From Methanobacteriales archaeon HGW-Methanobacteriales-1 (GTDB lineage Archaea; Methanobacteriota; Methanobacteria; Methanobacteriales; Methanobacteriaceae), in the NCBI GenBank assembly GCA_002839705.1, contig PGYO01000009.1:124001-188000 (forward strand): 64,000 nucleotides of DNA, given 5' to 3'. The position numbers were made by a program, and so were the translations under genes. Positions within the stretch are counted from its first letter, which is position 1; every line of letters starts with the position of its first letter. This document shows, one piece after another, positions 1,135 through 59,547 of this stretch. The notes beneath the pieces were generated by a model. The model searched no databases, was not told where the DNA came from, and was given only the letters and a program-made list of their open reading frames with translations.

Positions 1135-1833
1135 ATGAAGACAATACATATACTGGCCATTGCAATTGTAATTCTCATTACATCAGCTATAATTGTGCAG
1201 GGCACACTCAATGTGGATGCCCATATGGGACCACCTACAAAAATAATCGGTTCAGACAACAAAGGTACAGTTACCAAGATCACTTATTCAAATTCAAGCA
1301 ATTCCACTAAAAAAATAGCTGTTGTAACTGGAATGCATCCTCGAGAAACATCAGCTAAAAATATCGTGCCGCAAGTTGTAAAATCATACACTAAAAATCA
1401 CAATGTGGAAATTGTCAATTATAAAATAAACGTTACTGCATATCCAGAAAACTTCTATACTGGTCGTAACAACGGTGAATACTTAGTGTCCAAGTATGTA
1501 GTTCCAGATATTAAAAAATCAAAATATGGTCTGGTGATAATTTGCCATGACCATGAAGAAGGCTATGGTGAGGGATATTACTTTGCTACTCCTAGTATGG
1601 ATACCAAATCCATGGAAATAGCCCAATCCATGCGTTATATTTTAACAGATTTCAATTTCTGTACCCGGGATTTAAGCAAAAAAGCAGATAGTACCTCTAT
1701 TGAAATGGTGGATGACCCTATAGTGGCCACTGGAAACCCGGTGATTGTTTACGAGATCCCAGAATGGCTGGGAAAAGCAGACGTTGTCCATAATACCACT
1801 CGATTATTAGACAGTGTTTTTAAGTCCATTTAA
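1135..1833 (+). CDS. Secreted M14-like (AstE/AspA-type) hydrolase-like protein
   Basis: A 232-residue protein with an N-terminal hydrophobic segment (residues about 5-24) that looks like a signal peptide or membrane anchor. The core has GMHPRE around residues 66-71, which matches the HxxE zinc-binding motif of M14 carboxypeptidases and succinylglutamate desuccinylase-like enzymes, and a later ICHDHEE that could supply another ligand. An arginine (YTGRNN) follows at the expected distance. The protein is short for the family and carries no recognisable substrate domain, so an extracytoplasmic peptidase or amidase role is inference. It is monocistronic, with GTGA just upstream of the ATG. Confidence 0.55.
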   Translation: MKTIHILAIAIVILITSAIIVQGTLNVDAHMGPPTKIIGSDNKGTVTKITYSNSSNSTKKIAVVTGMHPRETSAKNIVPQVVKSYTKNHNVEIVNYKINVTAYPENFYTGRNNGEYLVSKYVVPDIKKSKYGLVIICHDHEEGYGEGYYFATPSMDTKSMEIAQSMRYILTDFNFCTRDLSKKADSTSIEMVDDPIVATGNPVIVYEIPEWLGKADVVHNTTRLLDSVFKSI

Positions 1834-2017
1834 TTTTAGAATATTGTCCTTACCTTTTTTAAAAAAAATAATCTTATAAATATTTATTTTTTAATTTTTA
1901 AATAATTTCAATAAATTGATTCTTTTATAAAATTTTTATATTAACAATTTTAATTTTAAAAGAATATACTTTATTTTAAAAGAATCTTTACACAGCTTAT
2001 ATTTATTTAAAACATTA

Positions 2018-2623
2018 CTAAACTTCTACCATCACCTCATTTCTTCTTAAAAAACCAGGTACAGCAGGGTTATTGTATTGTGCTATTATGAAATTAGTTT
2101 TTGCTTTTATATTATTTTTTTCTAACCAATTTTTAAGCTCTTCAACTTCCATATTTGCTAATTTATGATGCACTCTACCTTTGAATCTCAAAACAGCCAT
2201 TTTTTGATTTTTCACTTCTTTAAACTTTATTCGCTCATCATCTGGTATGGGAAGAGTTTCCAGAGTATATTTAGATGGCATGGTGAATGATATGCGATAA
2301 ATATGTGGTCCTGCGTCTTCTTCTGTCACTGGGGCAGCCATAGATATCTTTTCAGATCCTATTGCTTCTTCAGTTACTGGTATGGTCATAGCTATCTTTT
2401 CTGAGGAAGATATGTTTTCTCCAGATACGGGGGCCATCATGGAGATATTAGATTTTTTCTTATTACCTCCAAATATGTAATTAGCTAATATAGAAAATCC
2501 TAATCCCATGGCTTTATCAAAATCTGCTTCAATGTCAACTTGAGCTAGAATATAACCGGGATACACTCTTATTTCAATATCTTTGTCTTTATTTTCCACA
2601 GTATATGCTGGGCTTTCGGTCAT
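2018..2623 (-). CDS. SOUL family heme-binding protein
   Basis: A 201-residue cytoplasmic protein with the features of the SOUL/p22HBP family: N-terminal YTVENKDKDIEIRVYP, the central NISMMAPV, and the C-terminal AQYNNPAVPGFLRRNEVMV. Family members bind tetrapyrroles or act as heme chaperones; the archaeal role is unknown. Oddity: the family's single MTAPV-type motif occurs three times in tandem here (residues about 60-66, 77-83 and 93-99), with a 16-17 residue period. The gene stands alone and leftward; the start ATG follows AGGGGGAT. Confidence 0.85.
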   Translation of the reverse strand: MTESPAYTVENKDKDIEIRVYPGYILAQVDIEADFDKAMGLGFSILANYIFGGNKKKSNISMMAPVSGENISSSEKIAMTIPVTEEAIGSEKISMAAPVTEEDAGPHIYRISFTMPSKYTLETLPIPDDERIKFKEVKNQKMAVLRFKGRVHHKLANMEVEELKNWLEKNNIKAKTNFIIAQYNNPAVPGFLRRNEVMVEV

Positions 2624-7111: not shown

Positions 7112-7519
7112 TTAATCCTCATAACGAGGTTTATTAGAGTAAACTAAATTACCACCACAACCACAGACTCGTGAATCTTCCGGACCCAATTGATGGTCTA
7201 ATTTATAATAAACCGGGCATTTATCACAGAGAAGATATCCAAAATCACCGGATTTTTTCTCAGAAAAGTTTCCCATGTTCTGGTTCATATTAAAACCATA
7301 AGTTTTACCCATTACTTTTTGTATGGTTTTTTCCCGGTACTTTTTGGATACCACAGACTTAATAATAATTTTAGATCCTTTAAATATTTTTTTGGCCGTC
7401 TGCACTTTTTTATAGTGGGGGGATAATTCCCTACCACACTGGGAACAGTAAGTGGATAAAGGCCTATTCTGGGCCCCACAGTAGGGACATTTATTGAAGT
7501 TGGTGTTTATTTTTACCAT
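7112..7519 (-). CDS. Double zinc-ribbon protein
   Basis: A 135-residue protein with an N-terminal zinc ribbon (CPYCGAQNRPLSTYCSQCG, residues about 12-30) and a C-terminal cysteine set (CDKCPVYY then VCGCGG). A basic middle section carries little predicted structure. The family is common and uncharacterised in Methanobacteriales. The ATG follows GGAGGGAAATT. A relic of a close paralogue lies at 4013-4116. Confidence 0.7.
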   Translation of the reverse strand: MVKINTNFNKCPYCGAQNRPLSTYCSQCGRELSPHYKKVQTAKKIFKGSKIIIKSVVSKKYREKTIQKVMGKTYGFNMNQNMGNFSEKKSGDFGYLLCDKCPVYYKLDHQLGPEDSRVCGCGGNLVYSNKPRYED

Positions 7520-7602: not shown

Positions 7603-9396
7603 TTAATTCAATACCAATTCACCTAAAACATCACTTAAATTAATATATTCAATATTAGAATCACCATCAATGGCTGATTTAAATTCATCATCATGTCCAT
7701 TACTTATAACCAGGCCTTTAACTTTCTCACCAGTGGATAAACGGTCCAGGGCCCATCCCATATATTCTGAGATTTGATTAAAAGTGGCTTTAGAAGCTCC
7801 GCTATTTTTTAATTGAATTAGTACTAAATCCCTGGTTTCTTTCTCTTTAGTTAAAATATCAATTCTTCCACCGGCACCCTTACAAACAACCTGTCGGTCA
7901 ATTGTTTCTAGATTATATCCTAACTTTTCCAGAATATTGATGTTTTCATATAATGCTTCCACTAAATCGTATTGTTTCTTAAGATCATCAATGGTTTCCT
8001 GTATTTTGAGATCGTCTAAATCAAAATCAGGGTTTCTTTCTTTGAATAATCTCATTAAATGATCCCAATGCCTTTGATCAGTTTTATAGGTTAAACGGTT
8101 GAAATTTGAGGTTAGAGCATTCCATCCCTCTAAATATTCCTCATTTTTCATTTCATTTAAGCTAATAGAATTTTCAAATTTGAATAAAGGTTTATAATCA
8201 CATCCATAAGTCAATCCATTTTCAAAGGCATATTCATCATCTTCAATGGAATAAGCATGGCTGGTGGCCATTAAGAGATATTTTAAATCTTGATAAGTGA
8301 CTCCCTCTTTTTTACCGGCCCGGTATAGGAGGATTAAATCTCCAAAACGGGTATCTTTATGAGATGTCCACCATCCTCCGGATTCCAGAGTTTCTTGTGG
8401 TTCTAAAGATTCTTTTTCTCTATCATCTTCATCCAGGAAATTTTCAGGTTTGGCTATCCATTGCCAGTGCACTGGTTTTTTGCGGGGTTTTAATTTGACT
8501 GGCCCTTTATTCTTCTTAATATTAGAAATATATTCTTTTACTCGGCGGGCAATCAATTTGCTGTCGCTAATGTCATTCTTTTCTACAATTTCTACAAATT
8601 GTTGATAAGCTTCTTGTGACTCTTTTGGCTTGTTTAGTCGCTGAAGAATAATCCCCATTTGATAATAAGCCTCATAATATTCCGGGTCTACTTTTAAAAC
8701 TTTTTCAAAGAAATTTAAGGCTTCTTCAAAATTCTTGGATTCTTTCTCTAGAATAGCCATGTTAAAGTTAGGTAAAATAAACCCAGGGCTATAAGTTAAT
8801 GCTTCTTCAAAGCATTGCCTGGCATCATCATAATCTTCTAGTCTCATGAAGACAAATCCTTTATAATTTAGAACCTCAGGATTATTTGGTTCAAGTTTTA
8901 AGGCTTCTTCAAAGCATTTTAGTGCGTCACGATATTTAGTTAAATTATATAATGCATCCCCTCGGTGGAAAAGCGAGTCCGGATAGAGGAATTCATCTTC
9001 AGGATATTTTTCAAAGTAATATAGTGATTCTGAATATAATCCCATATTCAGTAAAAACCTTCCCTTAAGATATAAACCATCCGAAAAATTATTTTCTAAT
9101 TCCAAAACCTTCTCAGCAGCCTGTAATCCATCTCTAAATTCATTTAATAATAGTAAAATCCAGGCCTTCTTAGCCCAGGCTTCAGTGTCTTCTGGTTTTA
9201 GCTCTATAGCTTTTTCTATTGATTGAAGGGCCATTTCATCCTCTTCTAAATTAATTAAGGTCACGGCCTTCATGAACCAGGCATCCTGACAGGTGGGATT
9301 ATCTTCAGTGAGTTTTTCAAAATATTCCAATGCTTCTTCGAATTCTTCTTCATTAAAAAAATCCATAGCTTCATCAAAATATTGTTTTTTATCCAT
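7603..9396 (-). CDS. TPR protein fused to EVE-like and NucS/DUF91-like nuclease domains
   Basis: A 597-residue three-part protein. Residues 1-290 are about eight tetratricopeptide repeats (for example ALEYFEKLTEDNPTCQDAW). Residues about 308-420 (HWQWIAKPENF, then GWWTSHKDTRFGDLILLYR) resemble an EVE/PUA-like domain, which in known proteins reads modified bases. Residues about 470-597 carry the NucS/DUF91 PD-(D/E)XK fold with GRIDIL (D513) and LIQLK. The usual catalytic Glu is Gln at 528, so cleavage activity may be lost or altered. The gene is alone, with AGGAGATGA before ATG. A role in sensing modified DNA or RNA is inference. Confidence 0.7.
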   Translation of the reverse strand: MDKKQYFDEAMDFFNEEEFEEALEYFEKLTEDNPTCQDAWFMKAVTLINLEEDEMALQSIEKAIELKPEDTEAWAKKAWILLLLNEFRDGLQAAEKVLELENNFSDGLYLKGRFLLNMGLYSESLYYFEKYPEDEFLYPDSLFHRGDALYNLTKYRDALKCFEEALKLEPNNPEVLNYKGFVFMRLEDYDDARQCFEEALTYSPGFILPNFNMAILEKESKNFEEALNFFEKVLKVDPEYYEAYYQMGIILQRLNKPKESQEAYQQFVEIVEKNDISDSKLIARRVKEYISNIKKNKGPVKLKPRKKPVHWQWIAKPENFLDEDDREKESLEPQETLESGGWWTSHKDTRFGDLILLYRAGKKEGVTYQDLKYLLMATSHAYSIEDDEYAFENGLTYGCDYKPLFKFENSISLNEMKNEEYLEGWNALTSNFNRLTYKTDQRHWDHLMRLFKERNPDFDLDDLKIQETIDDLKKQYDLVEALYENINILEKLGYNLETIDRQVVCKGAGGRIDILTKEKETRDLVLIQLKNSGASKATFNQISEYMGWALDRLSTGEKVKGLVISNGHDDEFKSAIDGDSNIEYINLSDVLGELVLN

Positions 9397-9648: not shown

Positions 9649-10020
9649 TTAAGTTGGTATTCCTAATAATCCTGGAATGAAGCGTAAACTTGTAATAACA
9701 ATGCCCATACCTATCCCACCAATTAGACCAGTTATGAATCTTAAATTATTATTACTCTCCCTATGATTAAGGTATTGTGTAAGTCCATCTATAAATGTAG
9801 GTATTATCATTAAAAAACCCATTATCAAAATTATTATATTGAAAGCTGGATTAAAAATCATTACCAGTCCTATCACTGAGAAACTTCCCAGGTATATACC
9901 AGTGCACCGAGCACAAACTGGAAACTGATGGCCTTTTATTTTAAATGAACGCTCAGGAAGTCCATGGCAAATTATATGGCCTCTTAGGAAGTTTTTTCGG
10001 ACTATTTTAATTAAAGACAT
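9649..10020 (-). CDS. DUF2085 family membrane protein
   Basis: A 123-residue membrane protein with three hydrophobic segments. The N-terminal [10 protein letters not shown] and [15 protein letters not shown] are the diagnostic DUF2085 motifs, with paired His and Cys residues that may bind metal or heme. Function is unknown. It has a near-leaderless look, with AATAATT just before ATG and no clear ribosome-binding site. Confidence 0.8.
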
Positions 10021-43790: not shown

Positions 43791-45260
43791 TTAAAGTGCA
43801 TTATAACGGATATTTTTTCCTATACCTATCGTTTTTATCTGATTTTTATCTATTAATCCTTTTAAATCTCTTGAGGCGGTTCTGGAAGATACTGCAAATT
43901 TTTCTTCATATCTAATTCTTGTAAATGATTCGCCATCATTAACCATCATCTCCAGTGCCTTTATCTGCCTATCATTTAATCCTAAAACTTTTAAATCCGT
44001 TTTCCTATCTGCAGGTATGCTCGATACAAGATCTAAAATATTTTCTCCAGGCCCATAGAATATAACTGCAAATGATTTATCATAAAGTCTAAATTCTGGC
44101 TCAGACAGTCCATAACCCTGCATATCGTCTTTCATCTTATGAATACCTGTACCCAACTTTTCCATATCTTTAGTTTCATGGAAAATCCGACATATGTTTC
44201 GGTTACGGGCTTCGTGCTTTGAACCGATATTTTTGAGTGTTACCCCAGATACTAATCCCCCTGGACTAATAATTTCAACTCTATCATCATATATGTAAAA
44301 GAAAATAGGTGCTCCAGTACGATTATAGTCCCTATGGGCTATAGCATTAATAATAGCTTCTCTTATAGCAGAGTAAGGATATTCTGGAATATCAACTCTT
44401 TTGAAATCCACTATTTTATGTGCCGTACGAGTGTTCCGACGGAAAAAATTCTCAACTTGATCTATTATTTTATAAAAAGAACCTTTTATCTCTTGACTAT
44501 CAATAACAGGAGCCCCTAGAGTAATCCCATCGAAACGAGCAATTCGAATTTCATTTTGGGGGAAATAATATGATGCTTGTTGGCTGAAAAAAAGAACGGC
44601 AGTTGTAGTAGGATATGTTTGACCTTTATGTTCTTTCAAAACTTCTAAGCTATCTAAAATATTATTTATAGGAATATTCGGAACTTTAAGATCCATATTA
44701 ATGGCCCTTTTTTCAAGAAAATCTTTTACTTCATTCTCATCAATTGTATCATAACCAATTTCCGGATTAATCCTATCATCAAATTCTTCAAAATTTATGT
44801 GGCCTTCACTGATTAAAAAAGACTCTAAACTCATTATTATTTCATCTTTAAGGTCTTTAATGGAATTAAATCGTTTGTAAACAGATAATTTTTTGGCTTT
44901 GTTAAAAAATTCAGTGGTTTCTGAATCTCGCAAACTGTTGTTATGACCTTTAATGAATAGTAATATTTCACCATTAGTAACATTTTCTAAAAATGTTTTA
45001 TATTCTAATTCAGTTGCAGAAACTCCATTTTCATTTCTTAGACCATAAGAATTTCCTAAAATTCCAATATAAATATCACTACTTTTTACTTCACTTAAAT
45101 AAGTTGAAACGGCATCACGACCAGCAGCAGGCAAATCTTCAAATAAAAACGGCTCAAAATAGTTTCTAATTATAGGAGTGTTTACAATAGCATCCTTTAC
45201 AGCAAACCTTTCGTCTGAAAGTTCTTTCTGGTTTCCGCTGACAAAGACCTTAATTTTCAT
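43791..45260 (-). CDS. DUF4062 / ATP-binding (AlbA_2-type) / winged-helix protein
   Basis: A 489-residue protein. Residues 1-130 are DUF4062 (KVFVSGNQKELSDERFAVKD, then EDLPAAGRDAVSTYL and SSDIYIGILGNSYG), a TIR-related fold. Residues about 170-400 match the ATP-binding RecG-like regulators (PYSAIREAIINAIAHRDY with the GHKL-type N, then DRVEIISPGGLVSG and GSKHEARN). The end is a winged helix (RTASRDLKGLIDKNQIKTIG). Related DUF4062-ATPase proteins lie in defence islands. It is next to the type I restriction operon and may regulate or complement it. Confidence 0.82.
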   Translation of the reverse strand: MKIKVFVSGNQKELSDERFAVKDAIVNTPIIRNYFEPFLFEDLPAAGRDAVSTYLSEVKSSDIYIGILGNSYGLRNENGVSATELEYKTFLENVTNGEILLFIKGHNNSLRDSETTEFFNKAKKLSVYKRFNSIKDLKDEIIMSLESFLISEGHINFEEFDDRINPEIGYDTIDENEVKDFLEKRAINMDLKVPNIPINNILDSLEVLKEHKGQTYPTTTAVLFFSQQASYYFPQNEIRIARFDGITLGAPVIDSQEIKGSFYKIIDQVENFFRRNTRTAHKIVDFKRVDIPEYPYSAIREAIINAIAHRDYNRTGAPIFFYIYDDRVEIISPGGLVSGVTLKNIGSKHEARNRNICRIFHETKDMEKLGTGIHKMKDDMQGYGLSEPEFRLYDKSFAVIFYGPGENILDLVSSIPADRKTDLKVLGLNDRQIKALEMMVNDGESFTRIRYEEKFAVSSRTASRDLKGLIDKNQIKTIGIGKNIRYNAL

Positions 45261-45642: not shown

Positions 45643-48372
45643 ATGGATTCTTATACTGAAAATATTACATCAATTTCCGAAGCAAACACTAGGAAACAGT
45701 ATATTGATCCTTTACTCGAGAAAACAGGTTGGCTTGAGAAATATATTAAAGAAGAAGTTAATTCTGTTAAATCTAATTTTAAAAATAAAGATTTTATTTA
45801 TTTTAATGGTTCTATTGAACGTGGTGTAGATAGATTCATTGATTATGTTCTACTGGATGAAGATTACACACCCTTGGCCATCATTGAGGCCAAGAGATTT
45901 TCCAAAGATCCGGATATTGGCCGGATACAGTCCCGCAGCTATGCCCAGGACATTGAATCCCAAATTAATTATAAAGTACCTATTTTTCTAACCAATGGCC
46001 AAAAATGGGTTTTAATTGATGAATATGGTATTGAAAGGAAAGTAAGCGGCCCCTTTTCCCAGAGCGATTTAAAAAGACGCAGGGACCTTTATAAAAACCG
46101 TAAAGATCCTCGTGGTGTTAAATTAAATACTCATATTGTGGACAGGGCCCGCAGTGTGCAGATTGTGAGAAAATTATCAGAACACTTTGCTGAATGCCAT
46201 AGAACAGCATTAATTGAAATGGCCACCGGTACCGGAAAAACCAGGGTGGCCATGGCCCTTATTGATTTGCTGATTAAATCCAATGTGGTGCGAAATGTCC
46301 TATTTATTGCTGATAGAGTAGCTCTGGTAAGACAGGCAAAGGATAATGGATTTAAGAAATATTTCACCGAACCAGTGGCTGATTTAAGGAATGGATTCAA
46401 TGATAACAGCCGATTGTACGTTACCACGGTTCAGACTTTAATGCAGGGCAAGGAAACTCGTTTATTTGAAAAATTCTCCCCCGGATTTTTTGATTTAATT
46501 GTTTTTGACGAGGCCCACCGTTCCATTTATGATAGAAATAATCTCATTTATCAGTACTTTGATTGTATAAAAATTGGATTAACGGCCACACCTCGTGAGC
46601 GGGAAACTCAGAGTACCTTTGATTTATTTGGTAAGGCCACTGCTGAATATTCCTATGATGAGGCGGTGCGGGACGGGGTTTTGGTCCCCTATTTTGCCCA
46701 TATCATCTCTACCAAGGTTTTAAATGAAGGGATAAAACAGGAAAATCTGGATAAGTTTCTCAAAAACCATTTAAGAAGACAGAAAGTGGATCCTGATGAG
46801 CTGGAATTAACTGGTTCTCAATTTGACCGGGTTTTCATGGATGATAAGACCAATGCCCTTATAATTAAAAGTTTTATGGAGCACTGCTATAAATCAGATG
46901 AAGGAAAACCAGCCAAGTCTATTTTCTTCTGTGCCAGCCGAAACCATGCCAAACACATGAAAAAAGTTTTTGGAGAACTATTCCCTAAATTCTCTGATGA
47001 GGTGCAGGTTATAACCTCTAATATGGCCCGCAGCGACGATGAAGTAGAACGCTTTAAAAAACAGTCAAATCCACGAATTGCCCTATCCGTGGGAATGCTG
47101 GATACGGGAGTGGACATTCCAGAAATCTGCAACCTGGTATTTGTAAAACCAGTCTATTCACCCATAAGATTCTGGCAAATGCTGGGCCGGGGAACACGAA
47201 ACCTGCAAGCCTGCAAGCACAAGGATTGGCTGCCTTCGGGTAAGAAGAATGATTTCTTAATATTTGATTTTATGATTGGGGGCCATTCCAATATTGAATT
47301 CCATGAACTGGAAAGGGGAAAAGGTACTGGTGTGCCTAATGATGTTTTAACCACCATCTTTAACAACCGGGTGGCTCTTTTAGATAAAGATTTGACATCT
47401 GAGCAGAAGGAACTGATTACTGGAAAAATTAGAGTTACTATGGATGAGTTGAATGAGGAGTTCTTTTTAGTCAGGGAAAAAGCATCTATAATTTCCAGGA
47501 TTAAAAATAGTGATGATTTAGAGGGCTTTGTTGATCCCTTAATTGAAGAAATATCTCCTTTAATGATTACCCAGTTTGGTTCTAATTCTAAAGTTTCCTC
47601 ATTTATCCTGAAATCAGAAAAACTCTTTGAGTGTATTCTGGATCGTGATAAGGAAAAAATAGATAAAATACGCCGGGAAGTGGTCTTCATGATAAGTAAT
47701 GTCATGGAAAAGGACAACCTCCAGGTAATAAGCGAGAAGAAACCCCAACTGATAAGGGCCAGGCAGAGTGAATTCTGGGAAGATTTAACCTTTGAAGACG
47801 TGGAATTTTTGGTTATAGAAGTAGCACCCTTAATGAAGTACTTTGAACCCACAGGAAATGGCATTATTGATATACCGGTGGCCGATGTAATCACCGACTG
47901 GAAGAAGTTTGAAAAAGAAGTCCAGGAAGATGAGGAACTTAAAAGACTTCTGGAACGGAATGAATCAGTTCGCAAATTAAAAGAAGGCCAGGGTATTAAT
48001 TCAGGGGAGTTACTGGATTTAGAAAGGGAATTATCATCTCTAAAACCAGAAATAACCATAGAATACATTCAAAAACAGCAAAATATTGACTTTTTACAAT
48101 TCCTGAGAGATATTATTGGCCTCTCCCGTGATGACGATCCAAGGATGATAATTGAGAAGAGATTTAATGATTACATAGTGGAGAATGTGCATTACACCTC
48201 CCGCCAGGTTGAATTTCTAATGTTACTGAAGAAAGTCTTCTCTGAGAGAAAACACATTGAAATGAAGGATCTCGGTGGGCCACCCTTCGAGGATGAGAAT
48301 CCACTGGATTTGTTTAGTTATGAGGAGCTAGTGGGGATTGTTGATAAGTGTAATGAGATTAGGATGTGTTGA
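45643..48372 (+). CDS. hsdR: Type I restriction enzyme R subunit
   Basis: A 909-residue protein. The N-terminal nuclease domain has D67 and IIEAKR (E82-x-K84). The helicase follows with motif I MATGTGKT (about 195-202), DEAH in VFDEAHRS (about 290), motif III LTATPRE, and motif VI QMLGRGTR. The C-terminal 300 residues are of the EcoEI type (FLRDIIGLSRDDDP). It translocates and cuts DNA when HsdM/HsdS meet unmodified sites. First gene of a four-gene operon with hsdS and hsdM. The region before the ATG is very AT-rich with no ribosome-binding site. Confidence 0.95.
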   Translation: MDSYTENITSISEANTRKQYIDPLLEKTGWLEKYIKEEVNSVKSNFKNKDFIYFNGSIERGVDRFIDYVLLDEDYTPLAIIEAKRFSKDPDIGRIQSRSYAQDIESQINYKVPIFLTNGQKWVLIDEYGIERKVSGPFSQSDLKRRRDLYKNRKDPRGVKLNTHIVDRARSVQIVRKLSEHFAECHRTALIEMATGTGKTRVAMALIDLLIKSNVVRNVLFIADRVALVRQAKDNGFKKYFTEPVADLRNGFNDNSRLYVTTVQTLMQGKETRLFEKFSPGFFDLIVFDEAHRSIYDRNNLIYQYFDCIKIGLTATPRERETQSTFDLFGKATAEYSYDEAVRDGVLVPYFAHIISTKVLNEGIKQENLDKFLKNHLRRQKVDPDELELTGSQFDRVFMDDKTNALIIKSFMEHCYKSDEGKPAKSIFFCASRNHAKHMKKVFGELFPKFSDEVQVITSNMARSDDEVERFKKQSNPRIALSVGMLDTGVDIPEICNLVFVKPVYSPIRFWQMLGRGTRNLQACKHKDWLPSGKKNDFLIFDFMIGGHSNIEFHELERGKGTGVPNDVLTTIFNNRVALLDKDLTSEQKELITGKIRVTMDELNEEFFLVREKASIISRIKNSDDLEGFVDPLIEEISPLMITQFGSNSKVSSFILKSEKLFECILDRDKEKIDKIRREVVFMISNVMEKDNLQVISEKKPQLIRARQSEFWEDLTFEDVEFLVIEVAPLMKYFEPTGNGIIDIPVADVITDWKKFEKEVQEDEELKRLLERNESVRKLKEGQGINSGELLDLERELSSLKPEITIEYIQKQQNIDFLQFLRDIIGLSRDDDPRMIIEKRFNDYIVENVHYTSRQVEFLMLLKKVFSERKHIEMKDLGGPPFEDENPLDLFSYEELVGIVDKCNEIRMC

Positions 48373-48393
48373 ATTAGAATATTTGGGGATATC

Positions 48394-49389
48394 ATGAAAA
48401 TGCTTTGTGAAAAATTAGAAGAAATAGAATTTATTGACTTTTGTCCTGAGGATAGAACTATTTATGGAACGGTTCATTATTCAGATATTGAAAATAAATT
48501 TGTAGGATATATGGAACAAGGTGAAGAATTAATTCAGATTCCTATAGAACCTGTATCTGGAACTTATTGGAGTAAAAAACTTGTTGATCCTCAAAAAGAC
48601 TGCTATTTAGAAATTCTAAATTTAATATTAAACAATTATTCTTTTTCGAACCCAAACAAGTCCAAGAATATTTTGATGCATTTCAATAGCTTATCTAATG
48701 ATATAATTAATTTTGGGACTTTAATTAACAAACAATTTATTTTATGGGATTATATAAAAAATTCTGAAAAACCAATTCGTTTTTCCAATATTTATGTTAC
48801 TGAGTTAGAATATTTAATGGGGTTAGTGAGGTCTTTTTTTGATTTAATTTATGCAATAATTGTTTCTTTGTATGCTCAATTCAGACCTAAACTCGATTTT
48901 TCATTTCCCAACACATTAAATAAATTTTACCAGAGAATAGAACGATACGAAGTTGATGAGCCTATTTTGGATTTTTTAAAAGAAATACAACCATTATTTA
49001 GGCTTTGCAAAGATATTAGGGATGGTATTTATCACAGAGGTGAAACACCCCAAATCATTTTTATAACGGAGAATGGACCAGGTATTAGTATGCAAAAAAT
49101 TGAAGGATTAATGAGTGGCCCTTTTTTTCAATTTAATGATTTTTTTGAAGATGATCCTAAATTCAAAGATCATCTACTAAAAAATGATATTGCTTCAATT
49201 TTTTATTTAATTAATAGAATCATACAATTTGCATTAGAAAGCACAAATAAATTAGTCGAAGCTATTGAAAATACTTTTATTAAACCAAAATCAATATCTA
49301 ATGAATATAAAACATTTTTTAGGGCCCATGAGGTTCAGTATTTAAACAAAATCAATGAATATTTAGATCAATGCTGGATAGAGCCTTAA
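48394..49389 (+). CDS. HEPN-like protein embedded in the type I restriction operon
   Basis: A 331-residue protein with no family I recognise. The central, helix-rich part (residues about 135-290) contains RDGIYHRG with R209 and H214, which fits the R-x4-6-H motif of HEPN ribonucleases, in a helical context (KEIQPLFRLCKDIRDGIYH). The N-terminal 90 residues look like a small beta domain. It lies 21 bases after hsdR and 21 bases before hsdS, so it is translated with them. An RNase or abortive backup role is inference; a structural accessory is the alternative. Confidence 0.5.
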   Translation: MKMLCEKLEEIEFIDFCPEDRTIYGTVHYSDIENKFVGYMEQGEELIQIPIEPVSGTYWSKKLVDPQKDCYLEILNLILNNYSFSNPNKSKNILMHFNSLSNDIINFGTLINKQFILWDYIKNSEKPIRFSNIYVTELEYLMGLVRSFFDLIYAIIVSLYAQFRPKLDFSFPNTLNKFYQRIERYEVDEPILDFLKEIQPLFRLCKDIRDGIYHRGETPQIIFITENGPGISMQKIEGLMSGPFFQFNDFFEDDPKFKDHLLKNDIASIFYLINRIIQFALESTNKLVEAIENTFIKPKSISNEYKTFFRAHEVQYLNKINEYLDQCWIEP

Positions 49390-49410
49390 TTAATTTTAGA
49401 GTGGAAAAAA

Positions 49411-50610
49411 ATGATCAGCGAATTACCTAATGGATGGACATTAAAATCAATTAAAGAGATTTGTTCAGAGATTTCAGATGGAAATTATTCTTCAAAATAT
49501 CCTAAGCAAAGTGAATTTTTGGATTCAGGTATTCCGTTCATTCGTGCTAATAATTTAGTTAATAACACGGTAATCTGGGAAGATATGCGTTTTATTTCGA
49601 AAGAAAAACATGAATTATTAAAAAAAGGACATTTAAAAGAAAATGATGTTTTAATAACCACTAGGGGAGTTTTAGGGAATGTTGCATTAGTTCCTAAAGA
49701 ATTCGATGATGTAAATATAAACGCACAAATAGTTCGAATGAAAACTGATGAAACAATTATAATACCTAAATATCTGCTACTCACTTTTAAATCGAAAGAA
49801 TTTAAATCACAATTGGTAAAAAAAACAACTGGAACTACTCTAAAGCAATTACCTGTCAGAAAGCTCGAAAAAATGTTAATTGTAGTGCCGCCAATAAATT
49901 ACCAAAAGAAAATAGTCGAAATTCTGGAAAAGGCTGAAAAACTGAAAGAATGGCGTGCCGAAGCTGATGAATTGGCCTATGATTATTTGAAAAGTGTATT
50001 CATTAATATGTTTGGACATCCCCTATCTAAAGAAAATACGCTTGCAAAAGTAAAATTGGGAGATGTTATTGACATCATTGTTCCAACAAGAGATAAGCCA
50101 AAGAGTTTTACAGGAACAATCCCTTGGGTAACATTGCCTGATTTAAAAAATTCATTTTATATTAATAATTCTAAATATAAACTCTCAAAAAAAGAAGCTA
50201 AACCAACTAAAACTCGGTTATTTCCAAAAAAAACTGTTTTATTAAGTTGTGCAGGTAGTATTGGGAAAGTTGCTATAGCTGAGTGTGAATTATATACCAA
50301 TCAGCAATTTTATGGTTTGGTTTGTAATGAAAAAAAGATTATTCCTGAATTTTTGGCTTATCAATTGTCATTTTTAGGGGCTAATTTTTATAAAAGTATT
50401 GGCGGAACTTCAACTTTATCCTTTTTCAAAAAAGATGCTGCTTTAAAAATAAATATTATATTGCCTGACTTAAAACATCAACTGAAATTTACCAGTTTAT
50501 GTAATCAAATAGAAACACTGAAAACACACCAATCACAATCAAAACAAGAAATAGACAACCTATTCAATACCCTAATGCAAAAGGCCTTTAAAGGAGAACT
50601 TATATGTTAG
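49411..50610 (+). CDS. hsdS: Type I restriction enzyme specificity subunit
   Basis: A 399-residue protein with the usual two target-recognition domains (residues about 5-150 and 205-350), each followed by a long helix (ILEKAEKLKEWRAEADELAYDYLKS at about 170-195 and SLCNQIETLKTHQSQSKQEIDNLFNTLMQ at the end). VPPINYQKKIVEILEKAE and LPDLKHQLKF are the conserved junctions. It gives the complex its DNA specificity. The gene overlaps hsdM by seven bases. Confidence 0.93.
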   Translation: MISELPNGWTLKSIKEICSEISDGNYSSKYPKQSEFLDSGIPFIRANNLVNNTVIWEDMRFISKEKHELLKKGHLKENDVLITTRGVLGNVALVPKEFDDVNINAQIVRMKTDETIIIPKYLLLTFKSKEFKSQLVKKTTGTTLKQLPVRKLEKMLIVVPPINYQKKIVEILEKAEKLKEWRAEADELAYDYLKSVFINMFGHPLSKENTLAKVKLGDVIDIIVPTRDKPKSFTGTIPWVTLPDLKNSFYINNSKYKLSKKEAKPTKTRLFPKKTVLLSCAGSIGKVAIAECELYTNQQFYGLVCNEKKIIPEFLAYQLSFLGANFYKSIGGTSTLSFFKKDAALKINIILPDLKHQLKFTSLCNQIETLKTHQSQSKQEIDNLFNTLMQKAFKGELIC

Positions 50611-52091
50611 ATTCAGACCTCAAATCAAAGATTAATCAGTTATGGGATAAGTTCTGGAGTAGTGGGATATCCAATCCCCTGCAGGCCATTGAACAGATGT
50701 CCTACTTAATGTTCATGAAACGTTTAGATGATGATGAGATCGCCAAGGAAAAGAATGTTCAATTAAGTGGAGAACCATTCGAATCCCTCTTTAAAGACTG
50801 TCCTGATTGCCGCTGGTCACAATGGAATAACATGGCCTCTGATGAGATGCTGGACCATGTCCGGGATAAAGTATTTCCTTTCCTTAGAGATTTAGGAGAT
50901 GATAAATCACTCTACAGTCGTTATATGAAAGATGCGGTCTTTGCCATTCCCACCGGTACTCTATTAACTGAGGCCACCAGTATCATTGACGGTATGCACA
51001 TCAAGGAGCAGAACCTGGACACCAAAGGGGATATCTACGAGTACCTCTTATCTGAACTTAAAACCTCTGGTAAAAACGGTCAATTTAGAACTCCCAGACA
51101 TATCATCCAGATGATGGTGGAATTATTAGACCCTAAAGCTAAGGAAACCATCTGCGACCCGGCCTGTGGTACTGCTGGTTTTTTAGTCAATGCTTACCAG
51201 CACATTTTAAAGGCCAACACTTCCCGGGATTTAATAAAAATAGATGAAGATGGAAACCCTTACAACTTCAAAGGGGACAAATTAAGCCAGGAAGAATTCA
51301 AACTCCTCAAAAATAAATCATTATACGGTTTTGACTTTGACCAGACCATGGTGAGAATCTCTTTAATGAACCTTATGATGCACGGCATCAGCAATCCAAG
51401 GATAGATCAAACCAACACCTTGTCAATGCGTTACAGCCAGCATCCTAATTTTGATGTTGTACTGGCCAACCCACCATTTAAGGGAAGCATAAATAAAGAT
51501 GAGCTCAGTGATGATTTCTCCATAAACACCACCAAGACTGAGATTTTATTCCTAGAACTCATGTACAACATATTGACCATTGGTGGCCGTTGTGCAGTTA
51601 TTGTTCCTCAGGGTGTTTTATTTGGAAACTCTAAGGCCCATAAATCCATCAGGCAAAAATTATTAGAAGATTGTAGATTGGATGCTGTTATATCCATGCC
51701 ATCTGGTGTATTCAAACCTTATGCTGGAGTATCCACCGGAATTTTAATCTTTACCAAAGGTGAACCCACAGAAAATGTATGGTTCTATGACATGGAGGCC
51801 GATGGTTATTCCCTAGATGATAAGAGAACCTTCATTGATGGTAAGGGAGATATTCCAGATATTATTGAAAAATATATTAATAAAAACGTGGAAAAGCTGG
51901 AAGATCGTAAGGCCCAATGCTTCACTGTTCCATTAGATGAAATAAAAGAAAATGATTACTCTTTGAGTATTTCTAATTATAAAGAAATAGAATATGAAGA
52001 AATAGAGTATGAGGCTCCGGAAGTTATTAAGGCCAAAATCCTGGAATTAGAAGAAAAGATTATTCAGAATTTAAAAGATCTTGAAATTTAA
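50604..52091 (+). CDS. hsdM: Type I restriction enzyme modification subunit (adenine methyltransferase)
   Basis: A 495-residue N6-adenine methyltransferase. The N-terminal helical HsdM_N domain (LWDKFWSSGISNPLQAIEQM) is followed by the SAM-binding DPACGTAGFLV (about 183) and catalytic LANPPFKGS (about 287). It modifies host sites with HsdS. The start ATG overlaps the hsdS stop, so translation is coupled. Length is normal for the family. Confidence 0.95.
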   Translation: MLDSDLKSKINQLWDKFWSSGISNPLQAIEQMSYLMFMKRLDDDEIAKEKNVQLSGEPFESLFKDCPDCRWSQWNNMASDEMLDHVRDKVFPFLRDLGDDKSLYSRYMKDAVFAIPTGTLLTEATSIIDGMHIKEQNLDTKGDIYEYLLSELKTSGKNGQFRTPRHIIQMMVELLDPKAKETICDPACGTAGFLVNAYQHILKANTSRDLIKIDEDGNPYNFKGDKLSQEEFKLLKNKSLYGFDFDQTMVRISLMNLMMHGISNPRIDQTNTLSMRYSQHPNFDVVLANPPFKGSINKDELSDDFSINTTKTEILFLELMYNILTIGGRCAVIVPQGVLFGNSKAHKSIRQKLLEDCRLDAVISMPSGVFKPYAGVSTGILIFTKGEPTENVWFYDMEADGYSLDDKRTFIDGKGDIPDIIEKYINKNVEKLEDRKAQCFTVPLDEIKENDYSLSISNYKEIEYEEIEYEAPEVIKAKILELEEKIIQNLKDLEI

Positions 52092-59031: not shown

Positions 59032-59547
59032 ATGAAAACTATACAAGACTGTCTATTAGAAAAAAACGCAACTGTAGAGGCCTTAGGACAGGGCAAACAA
59101 TCTATTTTAATTAGGAACTATGAAAATACTTTGAAAGAATTTTTACTTTATCCTACTATTGAATATCTGGATGATGAAAAATACCTGGACAGCTTCCAAG
59201 ATAAACATCATTCTTTTATCAAGAAAAATTCCAAGCCTGATATAGAAGGCCCTGAATTTGAAGTCAAATACTATGCCAAAGTGGAAGAAGAAATTAAAAA
59301 ACCAGCCGCTAGTATTGAAACTATAAATAAGCACCATATGTGGACTGATGAGTATGTAAATGATTACATGAACGCTGATACTACCATTGTTTGGCTTTTA
59401 AGAGTTTACAAACTAAAAGAACCAGTGGTTATCAAAAGGACCAATGGTATGGTTTATGCTGATGTGGATGAAGCAATTTCCGTGGAAGATATTGAACCAG
59501 TATTATCTGATGCAGAATTTAATAAATTAAAAAAGAGTTTAAAATAG
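59032..59547 (+). CDS. DUF1802 family protein
   Basis: A 171-residue soluble protein. VEALGQGKQSILIRNYENT at the N-terminus and FLLYPTIEYLDDEKYLDSFQDKH fit DUF1802, whose members are uncharacterised and sometimes near DNA-repair or restriction genes. No catalytic residues can be assigned. It stands alone with weak ribosome-binding sequence before ATG. Confidence 0.68.
   Translation: MKTIQDCLLEKNATVEALGQGKQSILIRNYENTLKEFLLYPTIEYLDDEKYLDSFQDKHHSFIKKNSKPDIEGPEFEVKYYAKVEEEIKKPAASIETINKHHMWTDEYVNDYMNADTTIVWLLRVYKLKEPVVIKRTNGMVYADVDEAISVEDIEPVLSDAEFNKLKKSLK

Follow-up and report, generated by a model that had tools for sequence, protein, structure and literature searches.

If glutamine stands at the position of the catalytic glutamate, can a nuclease domain fused to a modified-base reader still cut? 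The question is raised by a gene in a 64,000-nucleotide stretch of DNA, referred to here as the window, from Methanobacteriales archaeon HGW-Methanobacteriales-1 (contig PGYO01000009.1, positions 124,001 to 188,000). A first-pass annotation had described its product as a triple fusion of tetratricopeptide repeats (TPR), an EVE-like domain and a NucS-like domain, and had suggested a sensor of altered nucleic acid that may bind without cutting. Fusion of a reader to a nuclease is a known logic of modification-dependent restriction.

Domain architecture and active site

Profile searches support all three parts of the fusion, the EVE part weakly in the window protein itself (Table 1). The tandem 34-residue repeats of the window protein score above the cut-off of PF07719 (142.7 bits). 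The EVE region matches PF01878 at 17.5 bits (E 0.0043), which is under the Pfam cut-off of 23, and the same region of an orthologue that is 48% identical to the window protein (genome G010) reaches 26.5 bits, above that cut-off. A PF01878 match at E values up to 0.1 was found in four of the seven members of the EVE alignment (A3), and small standalone EVE-like proteins show 29-32% identity to the window EVE region; searching PDB sequences with the EVE alignment returned nothing useful (best E 1.3). The C-terminal domain matches PF01939 (NucS_C) with E 2.8e-5, its 24.5 bits just passing the cut-off of 24. When a profile of nine relatives was compared with PDB sequences, it matched Pyrococcus abyssi (Pab) NucS (2vld, 7.8e-9) and T. 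kodakarensis (Tko) EndoMS (5gke, 1.5e-5). The N-terminal DNA-binding domain of NucS is absent, as PRK04247 scores only 26.1 bits against a cut-off of 216, over model positions 131-235. The last 80 residues of the window protein also match the PADLOC model PDLC04824 of PDC-S02 (E 7.5e-12), a partial match covering only positions 218-297 of 308 and leaving the N-terminal part of the model unmatched. A 319-residue search gave chance-like matches only. The assignment of the middle and C-terminal domains as EVE-type and NucS-type, placed behind a TPR region, is supported at the level of profile comparison.

Table 1. Positions in the window of the TPR-EVE-NucS_C gene, its domains, its active-site codons and its neighbours.
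Feature	Position	Strand	Basis or remark
Zinc-ribbon protein, 135 aa, downstream	7112..7519	-	neighbour conserved in genus, no shown link
TPR-EVE-NucS_C gene	7603..9396	-	open ORF, 597 aa, start ATG
TPR solenoid, aa 1-275, ~7 repeats	8572..9396	-	PF07719, seven stretches, E 3.2e-43
EVE-type (PUA-like) domain, aa 306-461	8014..8481	-	PF01878, below cut-off in window protein, above it in G010 orthologue
NucS_C / DUF91-type PD-(D/E)XK domain, aa 463-597, altered active site	7606..8010	-	PF01939, PDB profile matches
Codon 475, CAA Gln at conserved helix Glu (Pab NucS E127)	7972..7974	-	alignments
Codon 513, Asp retained (Pab NucS D160)	7858..7860	-	alignments
Codon 528, CAA Gln at catalytic Glu (Pab NucS E174)	7813..7815	-	alignments
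Codon 530, Lys retained (Pab NucS K176)	7807..7809	-	alignments
Codons 541-545, QISEY: Gln and Tyr of Q-x3-Y retained (Pab Q187, Y191)	7762..7776	-	alignments
DUF2085 membrane protein, upstream	9649..10020	-	neighbour conserved in genus, no shown link

In Pab NucS the site comprises D160, E174, K176, K44, E127, Q187 and Y191, and the catalytic residues of EndoMS are D165, E179 and K181 (reviewed in PMC7343888); the DUF91 motif is given as E-D-E(I/L/V)K in a survey (PMC1189080). The equivalences of D513, Q528, K530, Q541 and Y545 to Pab NucS are our own reading of the rows of the PDB alignment, and residue 475 was likewise assigned by us to E127 from the pairing of profile position 7 with chain residue 127. 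D513, Q528 and K530 lie exactly where the first-pass annotation had placed them. It had missed a second change, Q475 at the helix Glu, so that the window site reads Q-D-QxK as against E-D-ExK: both glutamates are replaced by Gln, and Asp, Lys and Q-x3-Y are retained.

The same ORF is present, in register, in the window genome, G001 and G002, which represent three species of one genus, with 94-95% identity over the C-terminal half. The CAA codon at 528 is common to all three and the codons just before it differ; because both Gln codons recur in three species amid differing codons, neither chance nor a base error explains the glutamines. D513, K530, Q541 and Y545 are invariant within the genus. 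The residue adjoining the site is also altered in G001 (I527T).

Two structure predictions, each from an input of two near-identical rows, were poor. The model of EVE plus NucS_C had a pLDDT of 37.7 and did not confirm the PUA-like beta-barrel expected of EVE; for NucS_C by itself the pLDDT was 49.4. In the latter model a helix is followed by three strands, a second helix and a last strand. Foldseek placed NucS/EndoMS chains in the top four rows at E 0.018-0.048, none reaching 0.001, and VIA-align 2 gave Z scores of 6.1 (5gkj), 5.5 (2vld) and 5.3 (5gke) for NucS/EndoMS chains, a range of Z also seen for restriction enzymes and RNA polymerase subunits. Taken alone, the NucS_C model supports little, and the geometry that we suggest for the altered site is that implied by the alignment.

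Distribution of the fusion and selection on its domains

Full-length orthologues occur in four of the 98 other genomes searched (G001, G002, G013 and G010). Of 151 genomes surveyed in the phylum, 5 carry the full fusion, and the same five were recovered among 395 relatives searched, where the other matches cover the nuclease part only or the EVE part only. Such rare and patchy occurrence is common among defence genes. Scanning genome contigs with the single protein gave one locus, a near-identical record. A viral or plasmid origin was rejected on scans of viral contigs, phage records and plasmid records: viral contigs scanned with two alignments (A1 and A3) gave no confirmed relative, phage records gave none either, and plasmid records yielded only short matches to the nuclease part, in 11 records, with query coverage below 80% in every case. 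A plasmid count for the nuclease domain by itself came to 12 records.

In order to compare the altered positions across relatives, 51 distinct NucS_C-type domains were assembled (66 rows minus 15 duplicates). Column 528 was readable in 50 of these, with Glu in 45, Gln in three, Lys in one and Asp in one. Column 475 was readable in 43, the other eight being without it, and holds Glu in 38, Gln in three, Ala in one (L063, a row that is apparently misaligned) and Thr in one (L032, a short ORF). The Gln rows of the two columns come from one set of proteins, those of the window genome, G001 and G002, hence from one genus. All of the 30 best-scoring NucS_C loci carry Glu at 528; of the PF01939 loci (matched in 94 of 99 genomes) the survey took in these 30, which leaves weaker NucS_C-type domains under-sampled. 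Glu stands at both 475 and 528 in the remaining full-length orthologues, G010 and G013, the second of which is 73% identical to the window protein over the C-terminal half. Gln as a family-wide trait is ruled out by these two orthologues and by most NucS_C-type domains. As judged from the alignments, Q475 and Q528 are a derived change at the level of the genus, not a property of the family. The first-pass annotation had named orthologues with Glu, marking Gln as a local change or an error, as evidence against its reading. Half of this applies: such orthologues exist, but an error is excluded by the three species that share Gln. The window genome also encodes a canonical NucS whose site is intact (L049, G000:C1:12869-13216).

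A NucS_C-type domain at L007 (G093; 1438-2325, minus strand) has Asn and Lys at the positions of the metal-site Asp and Glu. This domain is degenerate at those positions, so the site has been lost elsewhere too, independently.

Rates for each domain come from Nei-Gojobori counts on sequence pairs, together with Fisher tests. The comparison takes in three closely related species and two distant orthologues; the tests are simple, the sample is small, and G010 is near saturation at synonymous sites. Pairwise omega among the three Gln species is 0.04-0.08 for TPR, 0.08-0.09 for EVE and 0.18-0.32 for NucS_C, and the C domain of canonical NucS in the same three genomes gives 0.02-0.03. Omega is below 1 at p below 1e-6 for TPR and EVE in the three species, and it is below 1 for NucS_C in all three pairs (p 0.032, 0.012 and 0.0001). 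The ORF is intact and of identical length in the three species at dS of ~0.16-0.19. Within the genus, 15 of 135 sites vary in NucS_C versus 23 of 462 in the rest of the protein (p 0.015). The order is reversed between the Glu orthologues G013 and G010, where 63 of 133 NucS_C sites differ and 282 of 461 sites in the rest (p 0.005); the contrast between the two comparisons is significant (z 3.6, p 0.0004), and that between NucS_C alone and EVE within the genus is not (p 0.14). Among sites identical in both Glu orthologues, those altered in the genus number 22 of 70 in NucS_C, 16 of 97 in TPR and 9 of 82 in EVE (NucS_C against the 25 of 179 in TPR plus EVE, p 0.0035). Conserved acids have become amides in all three species at 3 of 11 positions in NucS_C (475, 487 and 528), 3 of 21 in TPR and 0 of 11 in EVE; the TPR cases show that such replacements are not confined to the active site. 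Purifying selection still acts on the nuclease domain, less tightly than on the domains beside it, and the domain does not drift freely. With all domains under purifying selection, the protein appears to be in use.

Defence neighbourhoods and related systems

No defence gene was recognised beside the TPR-EVE-NucS_C gene in the three congeners (PADLOC models excluded for those neighbours). Among the five full-length orthologues, one, that of G010, lies in a clear defence operon. There, a run on one strand consists of hsdM, hsdS, an OLD-like ATPase-TOPRIM gene, hsdR, TPR-EVE-NucS and a Mrr-type nuclease (PDC-S02), and the spacers on each side of TPR-EVE-NucS, worked out by hand, are 13 bases if an internal Met is the start. 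The 9.3-kb contig of G013 has no gene in common with the fetched defence loci, homology having been assessed among fetched loci only.

In G002, a lone EVE-like ORF adjoins a type I system. Compared with the G010 genes, hsdR of this system is 96% and hsdM 84% identical. This EVE ORF (L039 8467-8835), beside hsdM, has no in-frame start where its 98%-identical relative in G001 begins, and perhaps its start has decayed. In G001, the two halves of the fusion come as separate genes behind a BREX locus, in the order pglX, pglZ, brxL, DUF1802, EVE, TPR-NucS_C; the split TPR-NucS_C protein has the ExK motif. Homologues of DUF1802 occur in the window (59032-59547, plus strand) and, near EVE genes, at L037 7859-8380, L039 10540-11055 and L046 8053-8580. 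The family name derives from the L037 copy, which is beside EVE 8402-8827, and the DUF1802 homologue may belong to EVE modules.

The window genome also encodes, next to Hma/helicase-type genes, a McrB-like ATPase that carries a fused EVE domain. This EVE-McrB-like gene (L046 5728-7737, G000:C1) and an archaeal NucS_C nuclease (L044 1100-2194, G094) have a common front module (42% identity over 208 aa). The window itself contains a type I system on the plus strand (45643-52091), made up of hsdR (45643-48372), a gene for a 331-aa protein, hsdS (49411-50610) and hsdM (50604-52091). Adjoining it on the minus strand (43791-45260) is a gene for a 489-aa protein, residues 172-402 of which match the pAgo model PDLC02394 (1.5e-22) and SIR2/kinase-PNTD Argonaute-associated models.

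EVE is listed as one of the modified-base readers (PMC7641849), and other readers are joined to NucS_C in archaea, namely DCD in L028 and MrcB_N in L023; with such fusions recurring, the sensor of altered nucleic acid suggested by the first-pass annotation is plausible. Among the systems closest in design, EVE-HNH proteins such as VcaM4I are described as modification-dependent nucleases (PMC7897488). They and EVE-McrB resemble the window protein in that an EVE reader is fused to, or cooperates with, a nuclease, and differ from it in that the window protein has NucS_C rather than HNH or McrC, a TPR scaffold and an altered active site. The likeness to NucS/EndoMS lies in the homologous C-terminal PD-(D/E)XK domain with D, K, Q and Y kept, whereas the NucS N-terminal domain is replaced by TPR and EVE and the equivalents of E127 and E174 are Gln. 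Standalone EVE proteins accompany archaeal type I systems and are predicted to direct restriction to modified DNA (PMC7641849). Our loci echo this, with the nearly identical hsdR systems of G002 and G010 carrying a lone EVE and the triple fusion, respectively; in contrast, the window protein unites reader, docking and nuclease parts in one chain, and its gene lies outside such an operon. As regards PDC-S02, the likeness is confined to the C-terminal 80 residues.

The literature retrieved on the EVE domain with NucS, or with restriction and tetratricopeptide, held no description of a TPR-EVE-NucS_C fusion, and the words 'TPR', 'tetratricopeptide' and 'NucS' are absent from the main text of the EVE census (PMC7641849). 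What is new is the combination of a known reader and a known nuclease domain with TPRs, together with a doubly altered site fixed in one genus.

A probable path from restriction nuclease to reader

We think it probable that a restriction-type, modified-base-dependent nuclease was domesticated into a non-cutting reader or scaffold, both glutamates having changed to Gln in the ancestor of the genus. This reading starts from what was observed: the architecture, both substitutions and their phylogenetic limits, the defence context of the relatives and the pattern of selection. The ancestor would have been a TPR-EVE-NucS_C nuclease of restriction type, with EVE reading a modified base and NucS_C cutting. 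Its TPR would have docked a partner of the restriction system, and the intact protein would presumably have served as an accessory nuclease. E475Q and E528Q, which affect both metal-binding glutamates, would then have arisen in the ancestor of the window's genus, where the gene stands outside recognised defence operons. The window protein most likely still binds modified nucleic acid by its EVE domain and a partner by its TPR, and NucS_C, with D513, K530, Q541 and Y545, may hold DNA without cutting. We infer that a modified base is what EVE binds in the window protein, that cutting has been lost there, and that the direction was from defence enzyme to domesticated protein. Binding without cutting, as proposed by the first-pass annotation, gains indirect support beyond what was then known, since two site glutamates are lost rather than one; with a single acid left for the metal, cutting would be harder to explain than after one Gln change. 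As for the direction, G013, which has Glu and lacks defence-locus neighbours on 9.3 kb, implies that departure from the defence operon may predate the Gln changes, or that the direction is the reverse.

A change of use of this kind has a precedent in Staphylococcus, where PcdA, an EVE-McrB protein whose catalytic motifs have degraded, was coopted for cell division (PMC10602043). PcdA resembles the window protein in being EVE-bearing, restriction-derived, decayed in its catalytic motifs and retained for a new role. It differs in that its remainder is a McrB ATPase and not a nuclease, in its cell-division role, and in being unrelated to the window protein except for EVE.

It appears unlikely that the nuclease can still cut by means of an unusual site, either by tolerating Gln at ExK or by another acid having taken over. 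TnsA of Tn7 reportedly has Gln before x-Lys and would be a precedent for one Gln, its helix Glu being retained. In some PD-(D/E)XK members the acids are replaced by Asn or Gln, or have moved, according to the survey (PMC1189080), and an active site would also accord with the invariance of D513, K530, Q541 and Y545 in the genus and with omega below 1 in the domain. Against it, the helix Glu of the window protein is gone as well, so that the metal would have a single acid to bind; the domain is constrained about ten times less tightly than canonical NucS of the same species; and I527T lies beside the site in G001.

We regard it as quite improbable that the silenced protein still works in defence as a non-cutting specificity factor or brake, lending its EVE domain to a restriction system elsewhere, such as the type I system at 45643-52091. 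That system lies ~36 kb off in the window, a lone EVE adjoins a type I system in G002, and standalone EVE proteins beside type I systems are the archaeal pattern cited above. However, the gene shares no operon with any restriction gene in three species, the window HsdS and HsdM share no more than 22-27% identity with their counterparts next to EVE genes, and nothing ties the gene to the type I system of the window.

A decaying gene, in which the Gln changes would be first steps of loss and no role would remain, is highly improbable: the raised rate in the nuclease domain and the patchy occurrence of the full fusion would fit decay, but the intact ORF of identical length, the strong constraint on TPR and EVE (omega 0.04-0.09) and the omega below 1 of NucS_C in every pair speak against it. 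A role in repair of the NucS/EndoMS type, unrelated to restriction, is barely credible despite the NucS kind of the nuclease domain, as the genome already has a canonical NucS whose site is intact, TPR-EVE stands in place of the NucS N-terminal domain, and the relatives are located with restriction and BREX genes.

Under domestication of a restriction-type nuclease, it is possible, and we put it forward only tentatively, that the genus turned a defence nuclease into a resident reader of its own modified nucleic acid (DNA, tRNA or rRNA), acting as a non-cutting clamp with a TPR-recruited partner. The Glu- and Gln-bearing orthologues, being of one architecture, provide a natural pair for testing the capture of a restriction nuclease, and NucS_C-type nucleases and TPR scaffolds join the partners of EVE readers.
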